Below are positions 38,113-54,504 of a DNA stretch of 54,539 nt, piece after piece. Made by a program: the position numbers and the translations under genes. This DNA is from Methanobacteriota archaeon (GTDB lineage: Archaea > Thermoplasmatota > Poseidoniia > Poseidoniales > Thalassarchaeaceae). The notes beneath the pieces are model-generated. The model worked only from the letters and a program-made list of their open reading frames with translations, was not told where the DNA came from and made no database searches. The DNA lies in the NCBI GenBank assembly GCA_014239955.1, contig JAAZXW010000001.1, forward strand, positions 1-54,539. Reading direction: 5' to 3'. Positions within the stretch are counted from its first letter, which is position 1. Each line of letters begins with the position of its first letter.

Positions 38113-38187
38113 TGGTGCGAGTGCCGGGATTTGAACCCGGGTTCCCACGTTGGCAACGTGGGGTGATAACCGCTACACTACACTCGC
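38113..38187 (-). tRNA. trnG: tRNA-Gly (GCC anticodon), CCA encoded
   Basis: Read on the minus strand, the acceptor stem GCGAGTG pairs with CACTCGC, the discriminator is A and CCA is encoded. The anticodon arm is CCACG-TTGCCAA-CGTGG, giving anticodon GCC, and the T arm is CCGGG-TTCAAAT-CCCGG. No intron. The body is 72 bases plus CCA (38113-38115). A TTAGAAAA box at about -28 lies over the arsC stop codon. It lies between the large surface protein (convergent, 3 bases away) and arsC. Confidence 0.97.
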
Positions 38188-52356: not shown

Positions 52357-53670
52357 ATGGCAGAGGCTCCAGATTGGACAGAGAGTAGCCTCTCTGAGCA
52401 CTACTCAGATGGGTCTAGAATCGATCTTTCGTGGTTAGGCAAGCCAACCAGGCACCAATTCAGATGGCGGACGATAAAGGGACCTTGGGTCACATCTAGG
52501 AGGAGGATTTCGTCCGGTCAGTCGCTTGTCAAGGGCTTCAAGGGATCAATGCCGAGAGACGTCTTCGTTTCGACCTCATCATGGCTCGACCCCGTCAACC
52601 TGCCTCGACTCAAGGATGGCAAAAAACCACCACCGATTCTCCTGGATCACATGGTCGTATTCGACATAGACATGCGACCTTTCTGCATCAGAAGGCTAGA
52701 GGATGCAAGAGTAGCAGCCATGAGGCTGAGAGAATGGATTTCTGAGGCTACTGATCTCGATCTTCAGCATATCTCATTCTCTGGAGGTAAGGGATTCCAC
52801 CTAATCGCCCGAGACCCCGACAGGTCCGCCTTCTCGGAACCAGATACTATCAGGAGGGAGGAGATGGTAAGGGAGCAGAGGAGGACGCTACTGGATCAGG
52901 CACTCGAGGCTGGCCATCCGGTCGATCCGGTCGTGACTCCGGACACCCGCAGAATAATCAGGCTACCCGGAACACTACACGGCTCCACCGGATTTGCTTG
53001 CACCATTTTGGAAAACGGCCTGATAGAGAACCCAGTGAAGGACTGGATAGGTGAAATCCCCAGGCATCATTCGGCCGTAAGCATCCCCAAGAGGCCACCG
53101 ATAAAACTCCCCAGTTTCAGGTTTAGGATGCGTCCAAGGGTCTTTCTCGAGACGAGGAAGGGAGATAGGGAAGAGCACCTCAGCCTGGAGGTCAGCAGCC
53201 ATGTCAAGGGGACCAGAGACAGGTCAGCTGTGATTGCCTGGCTCCCGGAGAGATGGGGCGAGCCCAGAGAGGCGGTCGATAGGGCGCAGGAGTTGTTCGA
53301 CTCGATGGATCTGGGGCCTGTCGCCTACATGTTCGATGGCAGCGAGGTCCTAGCCATAGTCCCACGAGCCATCCCCAGGGACTTCCTGCTGAGTAGGTTG
53401 GGGAAGGCAGGATTGAGGAAGTTCGAACACGAGACTAGGAGGTTCGACCATTCCTGGGTCAGAATCTCCGGCAGGATGCAGAACGGGGATTGGCAGAGCG
53501 AACTCGAGCCAATCACGGTTCTCGGGTACGAGGCCAGCAAACGCTGCTCCCACCCTTGGTCAGCCCCACACCTAGAGCTCTGCAAGCGAGTAGGGCTGCC
53601 AATCGGGCCAATGGAAGGGGAAGTATCGGGGGCCAAAGAACCCTCCATCAGAGCAGCAATCCGGCGCTGA
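52357..53670 (+). CDS. priS: DNA primase small subunit-like protein (PriS/AEP)
   Basis: A 437-residue archaeo-eukaryotic primase. The catalytic DxD lies in HMVVFDIDMRPF, the second motif is ISFSGGKGFHLIARD (S-G-x-x-G-x-H) and the third VDPVVTPDTRRIIRLPGTLHGSTG, the R-x-x-R-x-P-x-[ST]-LH-G-x-TG of PriS. VFVSTSSWLDPVNL before the DxD corresponds to the first conserved strand. It makes RNA/DNA primers with the large subunit PriL, which is not here. ATG 52357 was chosen because longer frames run antisense through tpiA; a TTG at 52309 or 52318 is possible. The C-terminal 150 residues are longer than the minimal PriS and unassigned. Confidence 0.85.
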   Translation: MAEAPDWTESSLSEHYSDGSRIDLSWLGKPTRHQFRWRTIKGPWVTSRRRISSGQSLVKGFKGSMPRDVFVSTSSWLDPVNLPRLKDGKKPPPILLDHMVVFDIDMRPFCIRRLEDARVAAMRLREWISEATDLDLQHISFSGGKGFHLIARDPDRSAFSEPDTIRREEMVREQRRTLLDQALEAGHPVDPVVTPDTRRIIRLPGTLHGSTGFACTILENGLIENPVKDWIGEIPRHHSAVSIPKRPPIKLPSFRFRMRPRVFLETRKGDREEHLSLEVSSHVKGTRDRSAVIAWLPERWGEPREAVDRAQELFDSMDLGPVAYMFDGSEVLAIVPRAIPRDFLLSRLGKAGLRKFEHETRRFDHSWVRISGRMQNGDWQSELEPITVLGYEASKRCSHPWSAPHLELCKRVGLPIGPMEGEVSGAKEPSIRAAIRR

Positions 53671-53677
53671 GTTTATG
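53671..53677 (+). promoter_or_regulatory. TATA-like box preceding the structured leader
   Basis: GTTTATG directly follows the priS stop and lies about 26 bases upstream of 53701. A transcript would therefore begin at or close to the TGTCCC that opens the predicted RNA structure. Confidence 0.4.
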
Positions 53678-53700
53678 TCCTCCCTGCCATACTAACGACA

Positions 53701-53793
53701 TGTCCCAGTGAAGGAGCCCGCAAGGGCGATGACTGTTTGGCTACGCCAGCATTGAAGGTACTTCACCGGCCTCGGCGCCGGGACAGCGCCGAG
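53701..53793 (+). ncRNA. Predicted structured RNA leader with pseudoknot
   Basis: Five complementary segments are visible in 93 bases. GTGAAG (53708-53713) pairs with CTTCAC (53761-53766). Within that lie a GCCC-GCAA-GGGC tetraloop hairpin (53716-53727) and TGGC-TAC-GCCA (53738-53748). Then CTCGGCGC (53771-53778) pairs with GCGCCGAG (53786-53793), enclosing the loop CGGGACA. The 5' end TGTCCC (53701-53706) is the exact complement of GGGACA in that loop, so either a pseudoknot or a switch between two folds is possible. No known RNA family was recognised. It sits 22 bases upstream of ATG 53815. Confidence 0.5.
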
Positions 53794-53814
53794 TCCAATC
53801 CACTAGTGGTGAAC

Positions 53815-54504
53815 ATGTCAGAATTCGAGGCGGCTTTGTACTGCTGCGGAGCCATACTATGGGGGCTCAGTGGCGAGGGAGGTCCGGAAGTGCAGGCTCT
53901 CACAGTAATTGCTCTACTGATTTTCTTCTGGTTCATGGTCTCCGGTTCCGGCGATGCCACGGGATCTGCTTCCTACTCCGGGACTCGTAGTATCCGTAGT
54001 AGTGAAACCATGAAGGCATCGAAAATTTACGGAATTTCGCCTAGTCGAATCGATGGATATAACAATTTGATCGGCTACATGGGGTTCCAGGGCTCCACGG
54101 ATGAACCCCCCATCACGTCAATCGAGGAAGGGATATCTAGCTTCGAGAGGATAAAGCAGTCTGATCGAGGAATAGTCTCGGATGCGAAGAATTTCTTCTC
54201 CAGCCCCTATGTTATCGCTACTCTGGGTCTTGGGGGGGAGAATGCCGATTCAGAAGAGGCGACCAGTTCTCCGAGAGACATTTCGGACTATTCGAAGAAG
54301 ATTGGCGATGACTGGTGGGAGGAGGGTTACGAAGAAGGAACAGAAAAATCAACCCTGAAAACAGACCCTTCTGGGGATTCATGTGGAGACCCACAGTGCT
54401 CTAATCCAGTATCCGCCTTCGACTTCCGGTGCTTCACTTGCCGCAGGAGGTTCTGCAGCGAGCATGCTGGAGCAAACATCGAGTGCAGCGAGTGCTCGAA
54501 GTGA
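53815..54504 (+). CDS. Membrane protein with C-terminal zinc-ribbon/AN1-like Cys-rich domain
   Basis: A 229-residue protein from ATG 53815 (the frame is open upstream to TTG 53737, but that part overlaps the predicted RNA structure and is Arg-rich and not membrane-compatible). An N-terminal hydrophobic region (residues about 5-45: ALYCCGAILWGLSG and ALTVIALLIFFWFMVSG) is followed by a Ser/Asp-rich cytoplasmic part and a C-terminal Cys cluster: CGDPQCSNPV, DFRCFTCRRRFCSEHAG, IECSEC. The spacing C-x4-C, C-x2-C-x4-C-x2-H, C-x2-C is like a small zinc-binding AN1/ZZ-type finger. The function is unknown; the zinc domain suggests protein or nucleic-acid binding at the membrane. Confidence 0.65.
   Translation: MSEFEAALYCCGAILWGLSGEGGPEVQALTVIALLIFFWFMVSGSGDATGSASYSGTRSIRSSETMKASKIYGISPSRIDGYNNLIGYMGFQGSTDEPPITSIEEGISSFERIKQSDRGIVSDAKNFFSSPYVIATLGLGGENADSEEATSSPRDISDYSKKIGDDWWEEGYEEGTEKSTLKTDPSGDSCGDPQCSNPVSAFDFRCFTCRRRFCSEHAGANIECSECSK

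Follow-up and report, generated by a model that had tools for sequence, protein, structure and literature searches.

A pseudoknotted kink-turn RNA, probably a 5' leader, beside a second PriS-like primase gene in Poseidoniales archaea

Between a second PriS-like primase gene and the gene for a small protein, many archaea of the order Poseidoniales carry a short stretch that is almost certainly a real structured RNA, judging by the compensatory changes among its relatives. In most species it can be read with good confidence as the leader of the gene that follows. Poseidoniales, or Marine Group II, rank among the commonest archaea in surface ocean water; to our knowledge, few of their regulatory RNAs have been described. 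The stretch represents an RNA class that has not been catalogued. It joins a pseudoknot supported by covariation to a kink-turn, a pairing of motifs familiar above all from bacterial riboswitches, and its locus draws attention to a so far unstudied cassette that includes a second primase. It was noticed in the window, the whole 54,539-nucleotide stretch of DNA that was analysed, where a first-pass annotation had proposed a pseudoknotted RNA leader of no known family (Table 1).

Table 1. Features of the RNA locus in the window
Feature	Position	Strand	Remark
Second PriS-like AEP gene	52357..53670	+	upstream member of the cassette
TATA-like TTTAT	53672..53676	+	straight after the primase stop codon
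Structured RNA	53699..53796	+	span matched by the covariance models
Pseudoknot 5' strand TGTCCC	53701..53706	+	partner 53780-53785; compensatory changes
Kink-turn	53712..53734	+	AG 53712-53713 with CT 53733-53734
Kink-turn G:A part		+	GA 53714-53715 facing GA 53731-53732; GAT bulge 53728-53730
Kink-turn capped stem	53716-53727	+	GCCC 53716-53719 / GGGC 53724-53727, GCAA loop
Hairpin P3	53738..53748	+	TGGC/GCCA, UAC loop; differs among species
Hairpin P4	53768..53796	+	11 pairs, of which one is mismatched here; the 3' pseudoknot strand lies in the loop CGGGACA
Pseudoknot 3' strand GGGACA	53780..53785	+	within the P4 loop; compensatory changes
Shine-Dalgarno-like GGTGA	53808..53812	+	inside the 18-nt spacer from RNA to start codon
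Downstream gene, 229 aa	53815..54504	+	ATG at 53815; N-terminal hydrophobic segment, shared core, C-terminal AN1-like zinc finger

Covariation of the fold

The structure is not shown by the sequence of the window alone. Folding against shuffled sequence, which the first-pass annotation had suggested as a check, gave an energy no better than chance (RNAfold, z = -0.89), and the window holds 38 copies of TGTCCC where 41 are expected. It is the comparison with relatives that decides for a structure. Searching at the DNA level turned up the stretch in nine genomes, and their alignment holds the identical blocks GTCCC, GAAGGAGCCC…GGGCRATGAC, TACYTCA and GGCGCCGGGACAGCGCC, with variable stretches between them. 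In a structure-based alignment of 45 representatives, whose variable loops were padded with N, the proposed fold comprises 31 pairs, 25 of them with changes on both sides; paired cells amount to 93.2%, compared with 73.7% when shuffled and 33-46% when slid, and the covariation score is 0.476 against 0.139.

The pseudoknot, the hairpins and the 11-bp stem covary across two families. In P4, 98% of cells are paired and 8 of the 11 pairs show both-side changes. P3, which is also visible in plain alignments, has such changes in all six of its pairs, while its 100% pairing is built in and biased upward, because its rows were placed by looking for a hairpin; the rows of the pseudoknot, of the kink-turn hairpin P2 and of P4 were placed mostly by conserved sequence, a few of the pseudoknot rows by hand. 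Among 120 usable sequences, the complementary run between a 5' strand and its own P4 loop averages 7.18 nt, compared with 5.61 nt (sd 0.09) for swapped partners, a swap that does not keep relatedness. Mapped on a tree of the neighbouring primase, the core of the pseudoknot (four pairs) underwent nine changes, of which seven were compensatory, one led to G-U and one was a break. Pairing is thereby kept in the forms GTCCC/GGGAC, GTTCC/GGAAC, GTCTC/GAGAC and GCCTC/GAGGC; longer examples are TGTTCCC/GGGAACA, TGTTTCC/GGAAACA, CGTCTCC/GGAGACG and TGCCTC/GAGGCG.

Much of the architecture first proposed from the letters is borne out by these comparisons. The complementarity between TGTCCC and GGGACA is present and maintained through compensatory changes, whose absence the first-pass annotation had named as an argument against an RNA and which are abundant. 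The 8-bp hairpin at 53771-53793 is there too, extending to 53768-53796 in relatives, as are the GCAA hairpin and the small hairpin behind it. A second long-range stem, GTGAAG/CTTCAC, did not hold up, as it pairs in 37% of cells and is not conserved. The competing stem CCGGC/GCCGG exists in the letters as an alternative; it shows no covariation beyond shuffles (236/500), and no conserved two-state switch is visible.

The kink-turn and L7Ae

The conserved core GGAGCC…GGCRAUGAC has the anatomy of a kink-turn, its parts following one another as NC-helix, GA, capped C-helix, 3-nt bulge ending in U, GA and NC-helix. Sequence and covariation together identify the C-helix, the 3-nt bulge, the tandem G:A/A:G pairs and the NC-helix of the motif. 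The NC-helix is AG/CT in the window and AAUG/CAUU or CCG/CGG in other species, with the NC pair 14/36 in four Watson-Crick forms (AU 22, CG 9, UA 7, GC 6), while G16, A17, T32, G33, A34 and C35 are invariant (numbering of the 45-sequence alignment). Kink-turns are the usual binding site of L7Ae in archaea, where this protein is universal, and L7Ae-family genes are present in the genome of the window. The 3b:3n pair is mostly C:G, thus Watson-Crick, and -1b:-1n is C:G. According to published rules the former hinders kink-turn folding by ions only and the latter favours it (PMC6298567), so that the two give opposite predictions for protein-free folding; every kink-turn analysed by those authors folds on L7Ae (PMC6298567). 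In other archaea, l7ae mRNA is repressed by L7Ae through a kink-turn in its leader (PMC5539422; PMC6298567).

Distribution and neighbouring genes

Of 319 Poseidoniales genomes, about 40 were matched by a first covariance model. Diverged copies missed by the first search lie downstream of the same primase in a second family, and a second model gave matches in 122 of the 319 genomes, 121 of which were accepted. The RNA is thus found in 14 of 22 genera, the doubtful G212 counted in, with one locus per genome except in G041, where two contigs carry seemingly the same locus. Weak matches (L130, L131, G212) were dropped for want of neighbouring genes or for a low score. The RNA is absent from 21 other members of the class. 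In a sample of the phylum the sole weak match outside the order (G351:C21:23794-23884, E=4.5e-4), from a genome that offers many candidates, was judged to be probably chance. A genome-wide pattern scan returned 37 stretches, among which only those of Thalassarchaeaceae/Poseidoniales score well with the model, and the bacterial ones look like chance. Viral contigs searched by pattern and by primase gave no match, nor did phage records searched by primase; plasmids gave one weak 27% match.

The RNA is part of a cassette of patchy distribution, made up of the second PriS-like primase, the RNA, a small membrane protein that often has a zinc finger and, in most cases, a neighbouring helicase. The primase of the window, a divergent archaeo-eukaryotic primase (AEP), matches Pfam DNA_primase_S (E=2.8e-6), with the NCBIfam PriS models below cut-off, and the AEP motifs VVFDIDM, SGGKGFH and RLPGTLH are kept in 52 of 57 relatives. 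Its reading as the essential replicative PriS was dropped because the canonical PriS gene of this genome was found on another contig (G000:C4:54930); of 13 other genomes checked, 12 have a PriS-family gene above cut-off. The second primase is present in about half of the Poseidoniales genomes with good coverage and is gained and lost together with the RNA. In the 89 genomes with a completeness of 85% or more, among them that of the window, RNA and second primase are both present in 40 and both absent from 45; three of the four exceptions lie at the end of a contig, and in the fourth the primase is broken.

In genus g1 the block stands between triosephosphate isomerase and a gene reading like a sugar nucleotidyltransferase; it consists there of the AEP gene, the RNA, the gene for the small protein and, in convergent orientation, a ResIII-type helicase of 929 aa. 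At the same place, G022 and G004 lack the whole block and G017 has the helicase only. Presence and absence of the block between these two housekeeping genes of one genus can be followed at loci L282-L288 (G017, G022, G004, G012, G019, G014). Of the members of the cassette the helicase has the widest distribution, and in g12 it often lies on another contig. Defence-system models cover neither the AEP nor the small protein, and the helicase matches some of them weakly. In the genome of the window, contig C20 carries the ResIII helicase (G000:C20:94267-97158) and also a piece that is 100% identical to the final 34 codons of the zinc-finger gene, so that the window's contig end (54539) and C20 probably abut. 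Elsewhere in the window there is an ordinary tRNA-Gly (GCC) gene (38113-38187, minus strand).

The downstream proteins mostly combine an N-terminal hydrophobic segment with a C-terminal AN1-like finger. The zinc-finger membrane protein named by the first-pass annotation is recognisable in the window, where the zf-AN1 match (E=0.0021) is below cut-off, and the description does not extend to all relatives: genera g12, g20 and g22, with another layout, include short proteins that share the core YNRVI…SPTFRQLMGW alone. Many post-RNA genes of these three genera are without the C-terminal zinc finger, and some have an N-terminal Cys cluster (L186, L191, L236, L238, L239, L254, L256).

A probable leader in most species

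Of 119 relatives, 117 have a TATA-like box 22-30 nt before the RNA, compared with 10.6% of control stretches, which agrees with the RNA 5' end near 53700 originally placed from this box. The transcript very probably begins immediately ahead of the TGTCCC strand. Close behind P4 a gene starts in 110 of 121 genomes, in one of which the contig end is too near for certainty. The spacer from RNA to start codon is mostly 14-21 nt in the 109 measurable genomes, and 95 of these 109 spacers hold a Shine-Dalgarno (SD) match of at least 4 nt, where shuffling predicts 29. Box, short spacer and SD enrichment together lead us to read the RNA as a 5' leader, as had been proposed. The near-constant short spacing and the enriched SD further imply that the gene is very probably translated from the RNA-containing transcript.

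We lean, by a modest degree, towards the view that the RNA regulates the downstream gene with the help of L7Ae. L7Ae would bind the kink-turn and bend P2, the 5' end of the RNA would thereby reach the P4 loop, and the closed pseudoknot beside the ribosome-binding site would set how often the downstream protein is made. In the window about 75 nt separate the kink-turn from the SD. The idea that the junction ahead of P4 masks the SD is not supported, the pairing between them being 3.89 compared with 4.10 for swapped spacers, and the switching step is thus without sequence support. With less certainty, the RNA might also have a use of its own, because it persists in one clade in which the gene has gained a separate promoter-like box.

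The separated clade and rival explanations

This clade comprises 11 genomes of genus g11, in which the gene starts 83-153 nt downstream of the RNA (starts called automatically as the first long frame). A promoter-like GAAAGAYTATGTGC occurs 42-48 nt after P4 in all 11 and in none of the 110 other genomes, and is read as a putative promoter; its loci are L179, L181, L183, L184, L199-L202, L210, L217 and L227, some with a short inverted repeat before it. Behind P4, a run of 4 or more T occurs in 10 of the 11 separated genomes compared with 17 of the 110 leader genomes. The four g11 members in the primase tree form one clade. Their RNAs are intact, with compensated exchanges in a pseudoknot pair of G092 (GTCCC/GGGAC) and a P4 pair of G142, which indicates, on this reading, that the fold was kept after the gene had become at least partly uncoupled. 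With the gene so far off behind a promoter-like box, control in cis can hardly be the sole role in these 11 genomes, and there are hints of a further, independent one. Nature here provides a test case for whether leader RNAs can acquire a role of their own once the gene gains a promoter-like box.

The same observations feed a tentative alternative, in which the RNA is a stand-alone small RNA and part of an RNP with primase, small protein and helicase, the short spacer reflecting compact packing. Its co-occurrence with the second primase, the T runs, GAAAGAYTATGTGC and continued compensation in g11, and the frequency of kink-turns in L7Ae RNPs all fit; near-constant spacing and SD enrichment in 109 genomes speak against it. 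We also regard as doubtful an AEP-based RNA-protein system in which AEP, kink-turn/pseudoknot RNA, small and often membrane-bound protein and SF2 helicase act together with the RNA as a working part. Such a block, gained and lost together and built on an accessory primase-polymerase, might act in defence or repair of the genome, and the leader of one of its protein genes would contain the RNA.

A riboswitch sensing a metabolite or ion is unlikely. SAM-I and lysine riboswitches have a kink-turn plus pseudoknot layout (PMC3124441) and the leader position would suit one, yet the invariant bases outside helices are nearly all those of the kink-turn, a folding and protein-binding motif that leaves no obvious ligand pocket, no enzyme or transporter domain is recognised in the downstream gene, and no alternative fold covaries. 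Attenuation, whereby P4 and following U residues would end the transcript unless the fold were altered, is very unlikely: T runs after P4 do occur, as counted above, but most leader genomes, including the window's, have none. That the stretch encodes the N-terminus of the downstream protein, or other coding sequence, has next to no chance and was refuted by the alignments, even with a TTG-started frame running from 53737 into the gene, since the lengths of close relatives do not differ by multiples of three, the changes follow base pairs rather than codons, the stretch is not conserved as coding, and an SD and ATG stand at 53808-53817.

Comparison with known RNAs

The claim that no known family is involved agrees with Rfam 15, which gave no match over threshold for the window (chance-level matches up to E 10) and none for 15 diverged relatives; a literature search found no description of this RNA. 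Guide RNAs do not fit either: the ACA sits in the P4 loop, paired in the pseudoknot, unlike the 3'-end ACA box of an H/ACA RNA; there is one kink-turn and no second box pair, unlike box C/D; and no Rfam guide-RNA family matches the window above threshold. SAM-I and lysine riboswitches share a kink-turn able to bring distant strands together for a pseudoknot, whereas here there is no Rfam match, visible ligand pocket or metabolic gene. Their topology also differs from that of this RNA.

Pyrococcus sRkB and sRkC (PMC3124441) are likewise kink-turn RNAs overlapping a gene leader, and L7Ae binds them in vitro; at 216 and 211 nt, with two kink-turns and an association with repeats, they are set apart by description. 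Tan1 (PMC5069720), an abundant non-coding RNA of Thalassoarchaea, is structured and comes from the same archaeal group, yet, compared by description only, it is more than twice as long (229 nt). The l7ae leaders (Daume 2017; Huang 2019) share the GAU-type bulge, the tandem G:A kink-turn and the position in an archaeal 5' leader. In them the kink-turn adjoins the SD of l7ae itself, whereas the present RNA precedes a zinc-finger membrane protein gene with its kink-turn about 75 nt from the SD, is thus no l7ae autoregulatory leader, has C:G at -1b:-1n unlike the six l7ae leaders, and adds a pseudoknot and two extra hairpins.
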